From Microbispora sp. ZYX-F-249 (lineage in GTDB: Bacteria; Actinomycetota; Actinomycetes; Streptosporangiales; Streptosporangiaceae), in NCBI RefSeq assembly GCF_039649665.1, contig NZ_JBDJAW010000021.1, forward strand, positions 1 to 64,000: 64,000 nt of DNA, in the 5' to 3' direction. Numbering within the stretch: position 1 is the stretch's first letter; every line of letters begins with the position of its first letter. The position numbers were made by a program, and so were the translations under genes. The notes beneath the pieces are model-generated. The model was not told the DNA's origin. It ran no database searches and worked only from the letters and a program-made list of their open reading frames with translations. This document shows positions 13,514-21,552 of the stretch, one piece after another.

Positions 13514-13607
13514 GCCGTGCGGGCGCGTCCGCCCCGCGCCGGTCGTGAGCCGTGGGCAGGCGGCCCGCCCTCTCCCGCATCCTCCCGGAGCGCGGCAAGA
13601 TGTGCGA

Positions 13608-14459
13608 ATGGATCTCGACATCAGCGCGGTCTGTGATGCGTTCGGCCTCGGCCTGGCGGTGACGCGAGGGCTGCGGGTGGCCGGCTACTACCACAACGAG
13701 GTGTGGCGGCTCGACACGATCACCGGCGCGTACGCCGTGAAGCGGCTGCCGCCGTCGGCCGCGCCCGCCGTGGAGATCGAGGTCTCCGCCTGGCGGGCGG
13801 GCATCCCGGTGCCCGAGCCGGTCCCGTCGCCCGCGACAGGAGCGTACGTCGTCCCCATCGGGGACGGCGCGGTGCGGGTGCACCGCTGGCTCGACGGGAA
13901 GGCGCCCGCCCTCGGCGATCTCAGCCCCGAGCTGTCGGCCGCGATGGGCGAGCTGGTGGCCGCCGTCCACACGGCCGGTCGCGGCATCGCTCCGCAGGAA
14001 CCACCGCGGGCGGACCCCTCCGGACGAGCGGCCACGGATGCCGCGTCCGGACCGGCCGGCCTCGCGGCCGCGACCGCGCGACCGGCCGGGGTGGGCACCC
14101 TGACCATGTCCCACGGCGACCTGCACCCGAAGAACGCCCTGCTCCGGTTCGACGGCAGCCTGGCGATCATCGACTGGGACACCGCCGGTCCGTACGTCGC
14201 CGAGCAGGAGGCCGCGGGCATGGCCCTCGACTGGGCGGCCCGCCTCGACGGGAGCGTCGACGTCGACCGGTTCGACGCCGCCGTGTACGGCTACCGCAAA
14301 GCCGGCGGCGACATCCCGGCGGAGCCCTGGGTCTTCGGCGGCTGGGTGCGCGGCTATCTGGCCTTCCTCGACGGAGCCGGGCGGAACGAGCCCACCGGCA
14401 CGCTCGCCCGGCTCCGCTGGGTCGAGGCCAACCTCGACGCGCTGACCCGGCGCCTCTAG
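13608..14459 (+). CDS. Phosphotransferase of the APH/choline kinase fold
   Basis: A 283-residue kinase-fold protein. The catalytic loop is SHGDLHPKN and the magnesium motif is IIDWDTAG. The N lobe (YAVKRLPPS, then EIEVSAW) carries the ATP lysine. A Pro/Ala/Thr-rich insertion of about 45 residues precedes the catalytic loop. The substrate is unknown. The stop overlaps the end of the convergent NRPS gene by 4 bp. No ribosome-binding site is seen, and CAAGAT lies about eight bases before the ATG, so it may be leaderless. Confidence 0.82.
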   Translation: MDLDISAVCDAFGLGLAVTRGLRVAGYYHNEVWRLDTITGAYAVKRLPPSAAPAVEIEVSAWRAGIPVPEPVPSPATGAYVVPIGDGAVRVHRWLDGKAPALGDLSPELSAAMGELVAAVHTAGRGIAPQEPPRADPSGRAATDAASGPAGLAAATARPAGVGTLTMSHGDLHPKNALLRFDGSLAIIDWDTAGPYVAEQEAAGMALDWAARLDGSVDVDRFDAAVYGYRKAGGDIPAEPWVFGGWVRGYLAFLDGAGRNEPTGTLARLRWVEANLDALTRRL

Positions 14460-17400
14460 ACGGCGGCGCGACGCCGGATGGCCTCGACCCCGACGAGGTC
14501 GTCGGGCAGCGCGTCCGGCGTCTCGGTGTCGAGGCGGGCCAGCCGCCTCACCCGCAGGGCGCCGGCCGCCACGAGGAGCATGCCCAGCGCGCACACCAGA
14601 TAGAGGAAGGCGATCCCGCGGCCGGGGCCCACCCCGATCAGGGCGCCCACGGTCGGGGCGAGCGCCCCTCCCGGGGCCAGCATCGGGTCGAACAGCGCGG
14701 CGCCGAGCGGGGCGACCAGGCCGATGCCGACGGGCAGCGTCGACCAGGCGACCAGCGTGTTGAGCGCGAAGACCCGCCCATGGAACCGCGCGGGCACCTT
14801 GATCTGCACGATCGTGACGTAGATGCCGTTCATCAGCGTGAGGAAGTAGCTCAGCGCGAACGCCCCTGCGCCGACCACGGCAAGCGACGGGGCGAGGCCG
14901 GTGACGGCGCCGCCTGCCGCGATGGCCACGGCGAAGGCGAGCACCGCGCGGAACCGCCCGCGGCGCGGACCGCCCCACAGCGACATGGTCAGCCCGCCGA
15001 GCATGACGCCGAGCCCCGACACCAGCGAGATCACGCTGACGTCCTCGAGCGTGGCGAAGGAGAGCACCAGCGGCGAGACCAGCAGGAGCAGCGGGGACAG
15101 GAACACGTTGAGCACGGCGAAGAACACCAGCGTCGAGCGCAGGCCCCGGTCGTGCCACGTGTACGTGAAGCCCTTGGCGATCTCCGTGCCCAGCGGCTCG
15201 CGCGGCCGCCAGGGAAGCGTGTCGGGGAAGCGGACCAGCAGCACCGTGACGATGGCGAACGCGTAACTCGCCACGTCGATCGCCACGATGCCGCCGAGCC
15301 CGATCCAGGCCAGCAACCCGGCCGCGACGAGGGGGACGACGAGCTGCGCGACACCGTTGGTCATCTGGGTGACGCCGATGGCGTGACCGAGATAGTGCTT
15401 GGGGACGAGTTGCGGCACCGCCGACTGGTAGGCCAGCCGTTGGAAGCTCGTCGCCATCGACAGGCTGACGATCAGCAGGTAGATCTGCCAGATCCGTACG
15501 TCGCCGAACAGGAGCAGCCCGGCCAGCACGGCCTGGATCCCGACCGAGGCGCAGTCGGCGAACAGCATCACGCGCCGCCGGTCCGCCCGGTCCACGATCG
15601 CCCCGGCCAGCGGGGAGATCAGCAGCCCGGCCAGGTTGAGCACGGCCAGCGTGGAGAACTGCCCGATCGAACCGGAGTCCATGAGCACGGTCAGCGGCAG
15701 GGCCCACCCGGTGAGCGCCGAGCCGATCATCGAGAGCTGCTGCCCGGCGGAGATCGTCAGGAAGCGGCCCATGCTGGGCCGCACCCCCTGCTTGTCGGAC
15801 CCGGGCGGGGCGGACCCGCGCGAGACCGCCTGCACCCACCACGAGGGGTTCCCCGAGCGGTCGGAGACCTCCATGTGGGTGTGGGTGCGCAGGGCGGCGG
15901 CCAGTTCCTCCGCGCGGTAGCGCAGGAAGTAGTGGCCGCCCTCGTCGAGCACGACCAGCGCCGTCACGTCGGTGAGGAAGCCCCACTCGCGGTAGCGCTC
16001 CGCGTAGAAGTCGGTGGCGGGGTCGCGCTCGCCGATCACCGAGATGATCGGAGCGCGTAGCCGTGGCCGGTCCGGCGCGTCGAACAGCCCGGTGAAGTAC
16101 TTCTCCGCGGCCTTGGAATCGTGGCGCATCGTACGGATGATGCGGTCGGCCACGCCGGGATCGAGCTCCTCGAGGTCCACCCCACGGGCCTTGAGGCGGT
16201 TGATGTCGGTCTGACTGCTCCGGAGGCGGTCGAACTCCCCGATCCTCGACAGCGCCCGCATGAGCCCGCGCGGCCGGGCGAACGGGAAGATCGCCCCGAC
16301 GTAGACGGCGTCCACCGCACGGCCCGCCGCCTCGGCCCTGGCGGCCAGCTCGACCGCGAGCGCGGCGCCGACCCCGCAGTGGCCGTAGATCACCAGGGGG
16401 CCCTCGATGGCGAGGATCTCCTCGGTGGCGCGGGCGGCCAGCTCGGCGAACTCCATCGGCTCCTCGTCCAGGCCCACGTCGTGGCCGGGGATCGCGAGCG
16501 CGTACAGCGCCTGGTCGGCCGGCAGGGCGTCGGCCAGCGGCTGGTAGACCACGGCGCTGCCCGACCCGTACGGCACGCACACGTAGGTGACGCTCGCCGT
16601 GCGTGCCGGGGTGAGCCGCTGGAGCAGCGGGCGCGGGCCGTCCTCGCCGGAGCCGGCGTAGGCCGCCAGTTCGCGCACGGTCCGGTAGGTGAAGACGTCC
16701 ACCAGCCCCACCTGCGCCGACCCGGCCGGGAGCGCCCTGCGGAGCTTCGCGACGACCTGGACGGCGAGCAGCGAGTGGCCGCCGAGATCGAAGAAGTCGT
16801 CGTCGGCCCCGATCCGCTCGGCCGCCAGCACGTCGGCCCAGACGGCCGCGACGGCCCGCTCGATCTCGGTCTCCGGCGCGGCGTACGGCACGTCGGCCTG
16901 GACCTGCGGGACGGGCAGGGCGGCCCGGTCGAGCTTGCCGTTCGGCGTGAGCGGAAGGGCGTCGAGCGGGACGAACATCGACGGCAGCATGTACTCCGGC
17001 AGCGTGCCCCTGATCGCCGCGCGCACCTGGGCCGGCTCGGGCACGGCGTCGCCCGTGAGGTAGGCGACCAGCCGGGGGTCGCCGGGCACGTCCTCGCGGA
17101 CGATCACCGCGGCGTCCCGCACACCGGCCTTCTCACGGAGCACGGCCTCGATCTCGCCGAGCTCGATGCGCAGGCCGCGCAGCTTGACCTGGCCGTCGAG
17201 GCGGCCCAGGAACTCGATCGTGCCGTCCGGCAGCCAGCGGGCCGCGTCACCGGTGCGGTAGCGGCCGCCGGCGAACCGCTCGGCGGTCAGCTCCGGGCGG
17301 GCGTGGTAGCCGAGGGCGACGCCCACGCCGCCGATGTACAGCTCGCCGGGCACCCCCACGGGCACGGGCTCGCCATGGCGGTCGAGGACGTGCAGCGTGA

Positions 17401-19777
17401 TGTTCTGGATGGGCGAGCCGATCGGCACCCTCGCCCGGCCCGCCAGCGCGGACGGTGTGCACTGCCAGGCGGAGACGTCGACGGCCGCCTCGGTGGGGCC
17501 GTACAGGTTGTGCAGTTCGGCCGGGAGCGTGCGCAGGCAGCGCTCGGCCAGGTCGACGGGCAGTTCCTCCCCGCTGCACACGATGACGCGCGGCGAGGTG
17601 CAGGTCTCCACGCCCTCTTCGGCGAGGAACGCGCCGAGCATGGACGGCACGAAGTGCAGGACGGTCACCCGCTCGGCGTTGACCAGGTCACGCAGGTACG
17701 CGGGGTCGCGGTGGCCTCCGGGCTCGGCCAGCACAAGCCGCGCACCGGTGAGCAGGGGCCAGAAGAACTCCCACACCGAGACGTCGAACCCGGCCGGTGT
17801 CTTCTGCAGCACCACGTCGGCGTCGGTGAGCCGGAACCGTTTCTGCATCCAGTCGAGCCGGTTGACGATGCCGCGGTGGCTGTTGGGCACGCCCTTCGGC
17901 CGGCCGGTGGAGCCGGAGGTGTAGATCATGTACGCGGCCGTGCCGGGCCCGCCCCTCACCTCGGGCGCGGTCGCGGGCAGCCCGTCCCATACGGCGTCCA
18001 GGTCGAGCGGCAGGATGACGGCGCCGCCGGTGGCCAGCCGCTCGGCCAGGTCCTGCTGGGTGAGCACGACGGGCGCGCCCGAGTCCGACAGCATGAACGC
18101 CAGCCGGTCGGCGGGGTAGCCGGGGTCGAGCGGCACGTACGCCGCGCCGCTCTTGAGCACGCCGAGCAGTGCGGCGACCAGGTCGAGCGAGCGTTCGGCG
18201 CAGACCGCGACCAGACCGCCCGGCGCCACGCCGAGCCCCACGAGGCGGTGCGCGATCCGGTTGGCCCGCTCGTCGAGCTGCCGGTAGGTCCACGACCGCC
18301 CGGCGAAGGTCACCGCGACGGCCTCGGGGGTGCGGGCGACCTGCTCCTCGATCAGGCCGTGCAGCGTGGCCGTGTCCGGGTAGTCCGCGCCGGTCGCGTT
18401 CCACCCGGCGATCAGCGCGTCGTCGCCCGTCAGCGGCAGCCGGCTGATCGGGACGTGCGGGTCGCGCACGATCGCGCGCAGCAGGTCCTCGAACTGCCCG
18501 GCCATCCGGGCGATCGTGCTCTCGCGGAACAGCTCGGGCCGGTAGGTGAACGCGCAGTGCAGGCCCCCCTCGTCGGTGGGCACGGCGTACAGCTCCACGT
18601 CGTGCCTGGTCGACGTGGGGGCCAGCGCGAGGACCTCGGTCCCGTCGCCGGGGGCGAACTCGTGCAGCGTGCAGATCGTGTCGATCAGGGGCGGCCTGCT
18701 GGTGTCCCGCGGCACGCCCAGGGCGTCGACGAGCTGGGCGAAGGACAGTTCCTCGTGATCGAGCGCGGCGAGGACCGTGCCCCTGGTCCGGGCGAGCAAC
18801 TCGGCGAACGTGGGCTCGCCGTCCAGCCGGGCCCGTATCGCCAGCACGTTGACGAACATGCCCACGACGTCCTCGAACTCCGGTCTGTTCCGCCCGGCCA
18901 CCGGCACGCCGACGGCGAAGTCGTCCTGGCCGGTCAGCCGGGAGAGCAGGACCTGGTAGGCGGCCAGCAGGGTCATGAACGTGCTCGCGCCGTGGTCCCG
19001 GCTCAGCGCGGCGACGCCCTCCACCAGATCCGGCGCGAGGGAGCGTACGTGGGTCGCGCCGTCGAGTGTCTGAAGCGCCGGACGGGGCCGGTCCGTGAGG
19101 AGTTCGAGGCGCGGCAGCCCGGCCAGCTCCCCGCACCAGTAGTCCAGCTCGCGGTCGGGAGACCGCTCACGCTGCCACGCGGCGACGTCGCCGAAGCGCA
19201 CGGCGGGCGCGGGCGGCTCCTCGCCGCGGCAGAGCGCGAGCAGGTCGCGCATGAGCAGGTGCAACGACTGGCCGTCGGCCACGATGTGGTGCACCAGCAG
19301 GGCGACGATGTGCTCGTCCTCGCCCTTGCCGACGACGACGCACTTGAGCAGCGGTCCCCGGGCGAGGTCCAGCGGGATGGCGCTCTCGGCGCCGATGAGC
19401 GCGATCGCCTCCTCGTCCGTGACCGCCGTGGTGCGGTTCAGCGGCACCTCCGCCGTGTCCACGACGTGGACGGCTGGCCTGCCCTCCTCGGTCGCCGGGA
19501 ACCGCTGGCGCAGGCCCTCGTGCCGGGCCGGCAGCGCGGCGAGCGCGCGGGTCAGCCGGTCCTCGTCCAGCGGCTCGCGTATCCGTACGGCGAGCACCAG
19601 GGTGTAGGTGGTGGTGCCCGGCGTGAACTGCTCCATGAACCACAACGGCTCCTGGGCCGGGGACATCGGGGGTTCGACGCCCTCCGGGCGCCGGGGGATG
19701 GGATCGCGTGCGGAGCGGGCCCGCAGCCTGCGTCGGAGCAGTTCTCGCTTGGCGTCTGACAGGTCAGCCACAGACAT
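14456..19777 (-). CDS. Single-module NRPS fused to an MFS exporter (C-A-T-TE-MFS)
   Basis: A 1773-residue fusion. Residues 35-450 form a condensation domain with HHIVADG at 163-169. Residues 465-955 form an adenylation domain (YTSGSTGRPKG at 619-629, YRTGD at 840, K948 in NGKLDR). Its specificity residues, read against GrsA and EntF, are D665, V666, W669, H708, V733, S735, L758, V766, D767 and K948. That is one residue from the serine code of EntF. The carrier domain has DLGGHSLL (Ser1002). The thioesterase (about 1060-1300) has YGHCGVG with Cys1134 where serine is usual, plus D1252 and H1282. From about 1336 an EntS-like MFS permease of 11-12 helices follows, with the loop DRADRRRVM. There is no frameshift, no other NRPS gene and no carrier-activating enzyme nearby. 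The donor for the C domain must come in trans. Confidence 0.93.
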   Translation of the reverse strand: MSVADLSDAKRELLRRRLRARSARDPIPRRPEGVEPPMSPAQEPLWFMEQFTPGTTTYTLVLAVRIREPLDEDRLTRALAALPARHEGLRQRFPATEEGRPAVHVVDTAEVPLNRTTAVTDEEAIALIGAESAIPLDLARGPLLKCVVVGKGEDEHIVALLVHHIVADGQSLHLLMRDLLALCRGEEPPAPAVRFGDVAAWQRERSPDRELDYWCGELAGLPRLELLTDRPRPALQTLDGATHVRSLAPDLVEGVAALSRDHGASTFMTLLAAYQVLLSRLTGQDDFAVGVPVAGRNRPEFEDVVGMFVNVLAIRARLDGEPTFAELLARTRGTVLAALDHEELSFAQLVDALGVPRDTSRPPLIDTICTLHEFAPGDGTEVLALAPTSTRHDVELYAVPTDEGGLHCAFTYRPELFRESTIARMAGQFEDLLRAIVRDPHVPISRLPLTGDDALIAGWNATGADYPDTATLHGLIEEQVARTPEAVAVTFAGRSWTYRQLDERANRIAHRLVGLGVAPGGLVAVCAERSLDLVAALLGVLKSGAAYVPLDPGYPADRLAFMLSDSGAPVVLTQQDLAERLATGGAVILPLDLDAVWDGLPATAPEVRGGPGTAAYMIYTSGSTGRPKGVPNSHRGIVNRLDWMQKRFRLTDADVVLQKTPAGFDVSVWEFFWPLLTGARLVLAEPGGHRDPAYLRDLVNAERVTVLHFVPSMLGAFLAEEGVETCTSPRVIVCSGEELPVDLAERCLRTLPAELHNLYGPTEAAVDVSAWQCTPSALAGRARVPIGSPIQNITLHVLDRHGEPVPVGVPGELYIGGVGVALGYHARPELTAERFAGGRYRTGDAARWLPDGTIEFLGRLDGQVKLRGLRIELGEIEAVLREKAGVRDAAVIVREDVPGDPRLVAYLTGDAVPEPAQVRAAIRGTLPEYMLPSMFVPLDALPLTPNGKLDRAALPVPQVQADVPYAAPETEIERAVAAVWADVLAAERIGADDDFFDLGGHSLLAVQVVAKLRRALPAGSAQVGLVDVFTYRTVRELAAYAGSGEDGPRPLLQRLTPARTASVTYVCVPYGSGSAVVYQPLADALPADQALYALAIPGHDVGLDEEPMEFAELAARATEEILAIEGPLVIYGHCGVGAALAVELAARAEAAGRAVDAVYVGAIFPFARPRGLMRALSRIGEFDRLRSSQTDINRLKARGVDLEELDPGVADRIIRTMRHDSKAAEKYFTGLFDAPDRPRLRAPIISVIGERDPATDFYAERYREWGFLTDVTALVVLDEGGHYFLRYRAEELAAALRTHTHMEVSDRSGNPSWWVQAVSRGSAPPGSDKQGVRPSMGRFLTISAGQQLSMIGSALTGWALPLTVLMDSGSIGQFSTLAVLNLAGLLISPLAGAIVDRADRRRVMLFADCASVGIQAVLAGLLLFGDVRIWQIYLLIVSLSMATSFQRLAYQSAVPQLVPKHYLGHAIGVTQMTNGVAQLVVPLVAAGLLAWIGLGGIVAIDVASYAFAIVTVLLVRFPDTLPWRPREPLGTEIAKGFTYTWHDRGLRSTLVFFAVLNVFLSPLLLLVSPLVLSFATLEDVSVISLVSGLGVMLGGLTMSLWGGPRRGRFRAVLAFAVAIAAGGAVTGLAPSLAVVGAGAFALSYFLTLMNGIYVTIVQIKVPARFHGRVFALNTLVAWSTLPVGIGLVAPLGAALFDPMLAPGGALAPTVGALIGVGPGRGIAFLYLVCALGMLLVAAGALRVRRLARLDTETPDALPDDLVGVEAIRRRAAV

Positions 19778-20050
19778 GTGACACGGCCCTTCGATGGCGT
19801 ACAGCGGACAGTCACGCACGCAGGGAGACGAGCTTGATTCCCGGTCGGTGATCAAGGCGTTGTCCGTCACTGTACGGCTGCGGCACCGTGCCCGGCGTAG
19901 GCAGTGGTGGTCAGAGCGGTTTCCGGTGACGACCGGCGCTCGCCGCACGTCCCGTCACTGAAACTTTCACCCGGCGGGACCTCCGGCCACACGAGCCGAG
20001 CCCGTCGGCGCCCGCGCGGCAACCGCTGAAACCCAGGGCTCAGCGTGGGG

Positions 20051-20149
20051 CTGCGTCATGGGCCCTGCGTCATGGGCCCTGCGTCATGGGCCCTGCGTCA
20101 TGGGCCCTGCGTCATGCGCCCAGCGTCATGGGCCCTGCGTCGGTGGGCC
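20051..20149. repeat. 14-bp tandem repeat, about seven copies
   Basis: The unit is CTGCGTCATGGGCC. The first four copies are identical, and the last three carry one or a few changes. Successive units create the palindrome GGGCCC at each junction. The array ends 3 bp before the stop codon of the Rv1733c-type gene on the minus strand, so it forms that gene's 3' flank. Short open frames through it are products of the repeat, not genes. Confidence 0.9.
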
Positions 20150-20152
20150 CGC

Positions 20153-20743
20153 TCAGCGGCCGTTGATCCGCCACATGGGCTCGACCACGGTCCACTGGGC
20201 CTCCCACACCCCGCGGGCCCGGCGCTGGTTGACCAGGCGGGTGCAGGTGACCAGCAGCGCGAGGATCGCGGCGGCGGCCAGCGGCACGCCCGTGCCGACG
20301 GTCAGCGCGGCGACCACCGTGGTCTCCCGGTCCTGTGGCCGAGGTGCGATCACGCCTTGGTCGTCGGTCCAGATGCGCACCGTCTCGCCCGCCCGCCTGC
20401 TGGGGGGGACCTCGATGACCCCGGCCTTCGCCGTGCCGTCGGGGGCCACCCAGGCGGCCTGGGCGTGCCCGACCGCCGCTCCGGCCACCGACAGCCGGGG
20501 CGCCGTCACGTCACCTGTCAGCGTGGCGACGACCTGATGCCGGTCGCGCGCCTGCTGGGCCTCGGTCCTCAGGCCCTTGCCGTACTCGCGGATGCCGAGC
20601 ATCACGCCGAGCACGATCGCGACCACGACTCCCAGCACCGCGGCAAGCCGGACCACCGCTTCGACCCGGTCACACCGGCGCCGAAGCGGATTCCTGTCCA
20701 GTCCCAGCCAGCGAGCGAACCTGGCGAATAGATTCTGCGACAT
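20153..20743 (-). CDS. Rv1733c-type membrane protein
   Basis: A 196-residue protein with the arrangement of the Rv1733c family. It has an N-terminal basic segment (RNPLRRRCDRVE), a first membrane helix (about 32-50), an extracytoplasmic middle domain (about 55-140, with AAWVAPDGTAK), a second helix (about 148-170) and a short basic tail. The mycobacterial relative is dormancy-associated, and its biochemical role is not known. The coding sequence ends right at the 14-bp repeat array. Confidence 0.8.
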   Translation of the reverse strand: MSQNLFARFARWLGLDRNPLRRRCDRVEAVVRLAAVLGVVVAIVLGVMLGIREYGKGLRTEAQQARDRHQVVATLTGDVTAPRLSVAGAAVGHAQAAWVAPDGTAKAGVIEVPPSRRAGETVRIWTDDQGVIAPRPQDRETTVVAALTVGTGVPLAAAAILALLVTCTRLVNQRRARGVWEAQWTVVEPMWRINGR

Positions 20744-20787: not shown

Positions 20788-21552
20788 CTATTTTGCATCC
20801 CAAGAGAATCCAGGGGAACGCCCCTCCCGATATGCCCGGACACCTTCGGCCAATTCGCCGCTCTCTCGCGCCTCCCGCTGCCAGGCGCGCACCTCGGCCT
20901 CCCCGGCCCGGCCGTCGATGATCTGCTTGGCGGCCGTCAGCGTGAGCCGGGACCTGCCGGCCATCGTGGCCGCCAGGCCGTACACGCGCTCGCGCAGCTC
21001 CTCCGGCGGGCACACCTCGTCGACGAGGCCGGTGCGTACGGCGTGATCTGCGGTGATGAGCTCGGCCGAGAAGAGCAGGAGCTTCGCCGTGGCGGGCCCG
21101 GCGATCTCCGCGAGCCGCCGCGTGGAGCTGAGCGGGTAGACGATTCCGAGCTTGGCCGGGGTGACGCCGAAGCGGGCCCCGGCCGCCGCGACGCGCAGGT
21201 CGCAGGCGAGCGCGAGCTGGCATCCGCCGCCGACGCAGTATCCCTCGATCATCGCGATCACGGGTTTGGCAAAGGTCACCAGCGCGTGCTCGGCGACAAC
21301 GGTGAGACCGGTGTCATCGTCTTTATCGCCAAGCTCATGAATTTCCGAAATATCGGCACCAGAACAGAAAGTTCCCCCGGCTCCGGTAAGGACGAGGACG
21401 CGTACCTTCGGGTCCGCGGCGAGATCCGCCAGGATTCCCGGCAGGGCCCGCCACATGGCCGCGGTCACGGCGTTGCGCTTGGCCGGCCGGTTGAGGGTGA
21501 GGGTGGCGACGTGCTCCTCGATGGTCAGTTCGAACCCGTCGGTAACTTCCAT
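20788..21552 (-). CDS. Enoyl-CoA hydratase/isomerase family protein
   Basis: A 254-residue crotonase-fold protein. It has NRPAKRNAV for CoA binding, the oxyanion-hole segment TFCSGADISE, and GYCVGGGCQLALACDLR with the second oxyanion glycine. It probably hydrates or isomerises an acyl-CoA in fatty acid or amino acid breakdown, but the family has many activities. The gene stands alone, 113 bp from the divergent DUF5685 gene. A stretch of lower GC (about 21310-21400) inside the gene is unusual for this window. Confidence 0.88.
   Translation of the reverse strand: MEVTDGFELTIEEHVATLTLNRPAKRNAVTAAMWRALPGILADLAADPKVRVLVLTGAGGTFCSGADISEIHELGDKDDDTGLTVVAEHALVTFAKPVIAMIEGYCVGGGCQLALACDLRVAAAGARFGVTPAKLGIVYPLSSTRRLAEIAGPATAKLLLFSAELITADHAVRTGLVDEVCPPEELRERVYGLAATMAGRSRLTLTAAKQIIDGRAGEAEVRAWQREARESGELAEGVRAYREGRSPGFSWDAK

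Follow-up and report, generated by a model that had tools for sequence, protein, structure and literature searches.

A nonribosomal peptide synthetase module fused to an exporter and lying apart from partner genes in Microbispora: a candidate detached terminal module

Introduction

What is made by a gene that joins the last module of a nonribosomal peptide synthetase (NRPS) to an exporter, and that has no other peptide assembly gene beside it? The question is raised by a gene (P0001) at 14456-19777, minus strand, in a stretch of 64,000 nucleotides (the window) from contig C21 of the 8.8-Mb genome of Microbispora sp. ZYX-F-249 (G000), whose nearest named relatives are M. bryophytorum, M. sp. 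H13382 and M. hainanensis. The encoded protein carries condensation (C), adenylation (A), carrier (T), thioesterase (TE) and major facilitator superfamily (MFS) domains. This domain content has an annotation class of its own, 'non-ribosomal peptide synthetase/MFS transporter', for which we know of no described product or mechanism. No paper describing an NRPS-MFS fusion by title was found among the matches listed in the open-licence PMC literature, and the available portion of PMC3924187 covers other transporter fusions only. We hold, with just over even confidence, that the gene is a detached NRPS terminal module, which would receive its chain in trans, add serine, release the product from a cysteine TE and export it through the MFS domain.

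Results

The fusion is a single intact gene

The window gene is one uninterrupted frame of 1773 amino acids plus a stop codon, with its ATG at 19777, as an earlier note on this sequence had described. Pfam domains, each above its cut-off, follow one another as Condensation (residues 37-452), AMP-binding (477-825), AMP-binding_C (875-948), PP-binding (975-1040), Thioesterase (1066-1296) and MFS_1 (1347-1679). The C domain lies at 18422-19669 with an intact HHIVADG motif, the A domain at 16934-18349, the T domain at 16658-16855 with the motif GGHS, the TE at 15890-16582 and the predicted MFS exporter domain at 14459-15763, all on the minus strand; C, A, T and TE in order, above curated cut-offs, make up an NRPS terminal module. 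TE and MFS are joined by a linker (15764-15889) that contains Met1336, and that ranges across the family from 28 to 112 amino acids (median 43).

The architecture is widespread in actinomycetes. A scan with the TE-MFS part against one genome per species detected 460 encoding loci. The best 80 of them, together with 18 fusion-bearing stretches picked by hand out of 20 (14 stretches from relatives and four same-genome paralogues) and the window itself, made a set of 99 genes. Three Microbispora loci are doubled in this set, which therefore represents 96 distinct loci and the closest relatives only. A fusion was scored when C, A and MFS matches fell inside one open reading frame (ORF). A long open frame alone was rejected as proof of fusion; the 2035-aa frame at L138 consists of two overlapping genes, one NRPS and one MFS.

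In every one of the 99 genes (96 distinct loci) the C, A and MFS domains shared a single ORF longer than 1500 aa. Orthologues with 94-97% identity were found in five other Microbispora genomes, one of these a single contig, and four further full-length paralogues (C27, C51, C3 and C34; 41-50% identity) are encoded in the same genome. Misassembly is ruled out by these orthologues, paralogues and single ORFs, and the fusion is real. A separate MFS gene starting at about 15770 was likewise rejected. Met1336 (15772) is methionine in 86 of the 99 genes, and a Shine-Dalgarno-like (SD-like) sequence precedes it in 10 of these 86, compared with 11.5% at random codons; no start signal was seen there. 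The protein also aligned by tblastn, across 98% of its length, with plasmid records from five strains (two of Embleya, three of Streptomyces clavuligerus), and for four of these the alignment was in one piece; the evidence here is of alignments and not of ORF calls.

Fusion is not universal among more distant MFS relatives (31-37% identity), which include separate genes at L135, L136 and L138 and a 469-aa frame in G017; in addition, a match of 56% identity on contig C47 of G017 sits in a 304-aa frame, which may count against universal fusion. Of the nearest unfused MFS genes, L135 belongs to an NRPS cluster that also encodes E1/E2 proteins and a carrier-plus-C protein, and L138 overlaps a C-A-T-reductase gene. 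Other distant matches (L137, L139 and L140) are longer NRPS-MFS fusions of 2730-2901 aa. All three of the latter carry the nucleophile motif YGHCVGS, and L137, the one that was domain-scanned, has two C, A and T domains before TE-MFS. In an MFS tree of 80 rows, from which 26 near-duplicate rows (chosen by hand) and the three doubled rows were left out and in which long branches are present, the 73 fused rows formed one side of a branch with a Shimodaira-Hasegawa-like approximate likelihood ratio (SH-aLRT) value of 89, not starred.

Relatives of the gene are accompanied by partner genes

Neighbourhoods were read from stretches of ~10 kb on each side, some of which end at contig ends, and partners may be under-counted. 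At 83 of the 96 distinct loci, homologues of NRPS, polyketide synthase (PKS), MbtH, carrier, A, C or E1/E2 proteins were encoded within six genes of the fusion. At five loci a TauD-like gene was the sole member of the counted clusters. The remaining eight, six from Microbispora and two from Sphaerisporangium, had no counted partner. Within the window's clade, the order A, C, E1alpha, E1beta, E2, fusion recurs in L040, L059 and L061-L064; the domains of the L059 partner operon, including a carrier-bearing C-T protein, were confirmed with Pfam. L058 has the same kinds of gene in another order, and L060 has only a divergent NRPS within the available stretch.

No NRPS or PKS gene adjoins the fusion in the window or in any of its five orthologues, hereafter the six orphans, and a search of the window with the relatives' partner proteins gave no remnant of partner genes outside the fusion gene. 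The earlier statement that no partner biosynthetic gene is adjacent thus stands for NRPS and PKS genes, but it overlooks a tightly linked APH-family gene that is described below. The two Sphaerisporangium loci (L073 and L074) represent a second lineage of solo fusions, with conserved neighbours of their own and no partner genes in the available stretch.

Two Microbispora genomes keep a cluster that lacks its terminal module

A close copy of the fusion was present in seven of 15 genus genomes, namely the six with orphans and G013, in which it belongs to an operon. Two of the orphan genomes, G010 and G012, also have a matching upstream cluster, syntenic with its place in G013, but without the terminal module. 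With the G010 copies as reference, E1alpha identity is 94% for G012 and 92% for G013, and NRPS identity 94% and 90% respectively. The sole close fusion copy lies ~3.9 Mb from the cluster in G010, on one contig, and on another contig in G012. The gap after E2 in the G010 and G012 clusters contained no credible fusion remnant (best E 0.067). Because these two genomes keep an unlinked cluster without a terminal module, a detached terminal module is the better reading of the orphan. An upstream cluster of this kind was not found in the other four orphan genomes (G000, G003, G004 and G006), where E1alpha identity reaches 66-67% at best, in loci of the C27 type. The C27 cluster contains E1alpha, E1beta, E2, A, C, acyl carrier protein (ACP) and MbtH-like genes together with its own fusion, which has a different A code. 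A C27-type fusion occurs in all six orphan genomes (MFS 55-56% identical to that of the window, with a nearby E1alpha).

The orphan copies are under purifying selection

Ratios of nonsynonymous to synonymous substitution (dN/dS) were calculated as pairwise Nei-Gojobori means; the codon counts given here are not phylogenetic tests, and related rows are not independent. Among the six orphans dN/dS was 0.48 for C, 0.16 for A, 0.16 for T, 0.11 for TE and 0.27 for MFS, and the orphan gene is under purifying selection. Codons with replacement and with silent-only changes numbered 80 and 66 in C, compared with 58 and 145 in A, T and TE together (odds 3.03, p 9e-7). For comparison, C-domain odds were 1.37, with a range of 0.97-1.76, in a pool of five partner-bearing groups (pooled control rows: Actinacidiphila, 4; Planotetraspora, 4; Amycolatopsis, 9 of 12; Micromonospora, 3 of 11). 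Outside the pool, dN/dS for C and A was 0.37 and 0.32 in Nonomuraea and 0.37 and 0.29 in the rest of the window's clade, and the solo Sphaerisporangium copies gave C-domain odds of 1.56 (p 0.03). Within the orphans, the four copies from genomes that have lost the partner cluster gave odds of 3.57 (p 5e-6), and the two from genomes that retain it 1.81 (p 0.17). These data are suggestive, and only suggestive, of a relaxed C domain in the orphans, which would fit a chain donor that has been changed or lost.

The predicted substrate is serine

The A-domain pocket reads DVWHVSLVD, at positions placed by motif, and it differs from that of EntF, the enterobactin synthetase, at one of nine aligned positions. 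The four best PDB matches of the A core were Txo2, Txo1, FscH and EntF, all of which we take to be serine-activating. The core alone served as query; the whole A domain ranks LgrA first, through two summed domains, and Txo2 next. Serine is therefore the predicted substrate of the A domain. Among the 99 genes the code DVWH-SL-D occurs 62 times, DLYN or DLWN 11 times, DFTK 14 times, DTEL six times, DLPK five times and DLTK once; we presume that DVWH denotes serine, DLYN a cysteine- or serine-like residue and DFTK an aspartate- or asparagine-like one. The phosphopantetheine-bearing serine of the T domain is kept in 99 of 99.

The C3-type fusion has the code DLPKVAEVG. It is represented at L049 (8605-17632), where a 686-aa carrier-domain protein is also encoded, and by homologues at L051-L054, with a divergent TauD-like gene adjoining; MFS matches of 45-48% identity, taken as C3-type, were found in 14 of the 15 genus genomes.

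The thioesterase resembles that of ObiF1

The closest solved TE, by sequence and by fold, was that of ObiF1, the obafluorin synthetase, whose TE forms a beta-lactone. In the PDB sequence search ObiF1 (1.5e-30) was followed by BorB (8e-17) and SulM (5e-11), and in the fold search with an AlphaFold2 model of TE-MFS ObiF1 ranked first (1e-10) and SulM eighth; the model had a mean predicted local distance difference test score of 77 and a predicted template modelling score of 0.59, and part of the TE fell below 50. The likeness extends to the GHC nucleophile motif, the glycine 27 residues after the cysteine and the triad aspartate at position II. The predicted nucleophile Cys1134 (codon 16376-16378) is cysteine in 93 of the 99 genes and serine in six, the residue at Cys+27 (Gly1161 in the window) is glycine in 98, and the triad residues Asp1252, at position II, and His1282 are kept in all 99. 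In ObiF1 the corresponding residues are Cys1146, Gly1173, Asp1254 and His1284, and EntF has Asp in place of the glycine, according to PMC6668435. A cysteine nucleophile, aspartate at position II and glycine instead of aspartate at position I thus place the window TE, by alignment and model, with ObiF1; the aspartate at position I typical of EntF is replaced by Gly1161. This residue set and the best sequence and fold matches make release by formation of a four-membered ring the leading candidate chemistry.

The six members with a serine nucleophile (L070, L076, L078, L085, L091 and L093) all have the A code DTELIGT. This would be consistent with nucleophile and substrate being linked, though it probably reflects one event.

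The MFS domain

MFS_1 and MFS_3 of Pfam both exceeded their cut-offs in the MFS part. The nearest NCBIfam MFS model, TIGR00900 (H+ antiporter), scored 176.4 bits, below its cut-off of 319.6, and no PDB sequence match was obtained at E 0.1. Sequence, conservation and selection support the proposal of the earlier note that one polypeptide would physically couple synthesis and release of the product to its export.

The gene was probably acquired as part of a two-gene insert

The orphan stands beside an APH-family phosphotransferase gene (13608-14456, plus strand, stop codon to 14459), which is convergent with the fusion gene and overlaps it by 4 bases. Its product matches Pfam APH (3e-15), and scored weakly with the homoserine kinase model (24.6 of 271 bits, far below cut-off). 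Of the 15 genus genomes, precisely the six with orphans had this gene, and the other nine had no match at E 1e-60; in Nonomuraea dietziae L059, too, a homologue comes after the fusion. A role of this kinase in self-protection or tailoring is possible.

The two genes are flanked by a glgC-like gene and a gene at 20156-20743. At all four inspected sites that lack them (G013, G008, G001 and G007) the flanking genes adjoin each other, their last sense codons being 27-73 bp apart, and the region ~13514-20152 is therefore, by synteny, a two-gene insert of 6.6 kb within a housekeeping region. In a full-length tree the sister of the orphan copies was Thermocatellispora L058 (100/99) rather than G013, which suggests that the insert was probably acquired from outside. 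Simple relocation of a resident terminal module within Microbispora is unsupported by this placement. An enoyl-CoA hydratase gene further along (20791-21552) is present in 14 of 15 genus genomes; kinship with the one beside Actinacidiphila fusions was rejected, identity being only 35-37%.

The 5' region (19778-19990, minus strand) is conserved over ~200 bp in the six orthologues, beyond which conservation ends, and an SD-like GAAGGG before the ATG is kept in six of six. Scans upstream of the fusion gene for sigma-70-type promoters and for RNA families gave no match. Seven copies of a 14-bp tandem repeat (CTGCGTCATGGGCC) lie ~270 bp upstream of the gene, at 20051-20150 of the window; exact copies were not found within 400 bp upstream of the start in any of the five orthologues. 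An N-terminal tail motif, present in its strict form in 16 of the 99 fusions and in a loose version in 71, was set aside.

Discussion

A terminal module that works in trans would operate as follows. The C domain would receive its acyl or peptidyl chain from a carrier protein whose gene lies elsewhere, and the A domain is predicted from its pocket residues to load L-serine onto the T domain, after which the chain would be condensed onto the serine. The ObiF1-type TE, with its residue set assigned by alignment, would then take the chain on Cys1134 and release it; attack by the serine beta-hydroxyl, giving a beta-lactone, is the leading but unproven option. The joined MFS domain, as the fusion suggests, would export the product beside the site of release.

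Parts of this scheme have counterparts in known systems. We take ObiF to share the order C-A-T-TE with the fusion gene, and EntF to have the same order with a serine-activating A domain; EntF presumably differs in its serine nucleophile and separate exporter gene, and the fusion gene scored 548.1 bits with the EntF model NF007605, below the cut-off of 2400. In ObiF the TE is followed by an MbtH-like and an aryl A domain, whereas here the MFS follows, and the TE aspartate of EntF is on the other strand, according to PMC6668435. The sulfazecin enzyme SulM, third among the PDB matches, likewise has a cysteine nucleophile and a position-II aspartate, but its motif is Gln-Cys-Asn, in contrast to GHC, and it forms a beta-lactam (PMC11298585).

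For the partner operons of the relatives, the likeness is to pathways in which 2-oxoacid-dehydrogenase E1 and E2 genes lie beside an NRPS. In naphthyridinomycin biosynthesis NapB/NapD are reported, in work by Peng from 2012, to act as E1/E2 enzymes that prime the NRPS, and to our knowledge neither that system nor pepteridine includes a TE-MFS fusion. The E1/E2 enzymes of pepteridine prime NRPS carriers, as stated in PMC5384830. The window differs from both systems in that a search with the relatives' partner proteins found no E1/E2 genes.

Several observations weigh against a detached module supplied by a resident line. The window's own genome has no matching upstream cluster (best E1alpha 67%, best NRPS 57%), and an orphan that was probably acquired from outside, as the tree suggests, need not fit a resident cluster. 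Faster change of the C domain is also seen in the partner-bearing Amycolatopsis set (odds 1.8, p 0.002) and in the neighbour-bearing DLPK group, outside the pool (odds 1.79, p 0.0006); the partner-lost and partner-retaining orphans, compared directly, do not differ significantly (p 0.088), and the partner-lost pair of the window and L056 alone gives p 0.15. On the chemistry, 20 of the 93 members with a cysteine TE have the A codes DFTK, DLPK or DLTK, which we do not take to denote beta-hydroxy or beta-thiol residues; the five DLPK loci do carry a TauD-like gene beside the fusion. Type II thioesterases also share the position-II aspartate, according to PMC11298585. For these two reasons the residue set is not proof of ring release.

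One alternative is close to the 'minimal one-gene system' of the earlier note: the C domain would accept a free acyl-CoA or acyl-ACP, and the gene, or the gene together with the kinase, would make and export an N-acyl-serine. As a rule for the family this fails, with partners at 83 of 96 loci, although an autonomous role could still apply in the window's genome. The orphan's own conserved 5' region, purifying selection on A, T, TE and MFS even though four of six orphan genomes lack a matching cluster, and the second solo lineage in Sphaerisporangium speak for it. Yet the apparent relaxation in the partner-lost copies falls on C, the domain on which such a system would depend for its acyl group, close relatives adjoin partners that bear carrier proteins, and other NRPS clusters of the genome could donate a chain; we regard autonomy as unlikely. 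A similarly low probability is given to use of the orphan as an alternative terminal module for a resident line such as C27 or C51, by which a shared upstream part would yield two products. The C27 cluster has the necessary range of genes beside a differently coded fusion, and all six orphan genomes carry the C27 type, but this co-occurrence is uninformative for use in trans because the type is found in most orphan-free genus genomes too. That the orphan is what is left of a lost or acquired cluster and is now decaying into a pseudogene would agree with its faster C domain and with the lack of a matching cluster in the window's genome, and is very improbable given that it is intact in six of six genomes, with low dN/dS in TE and A and with conserved catalytic residues and 5' region.

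The reading as a detached terminal module has a broader form, which we put forward tentatively and think rather doubtful. The actinomycete family, as sampled by one scan, would pass N-acyl-serine beta-lactones or related four-membered rings to an attached exporter, and the Microbispora two-gene insert with its kinase would be a portable 'finish-and-export' unit for assembly lines encoded elsewhere. Should the attached exporter take over the product where it is released, the family would allow channelling from biosynthesis to export to be tested in a natural setting. With an ObiF1-type cysteine and glycine in at least 92 of the 99 genes, it points to a reservoir of possibly beta-lactone-forming lines whose terminal modules may be separable. 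NRPS complementation in trans could be tested with the Microbispora insert and the cluster that, in two genomes, lacks a terminal module.

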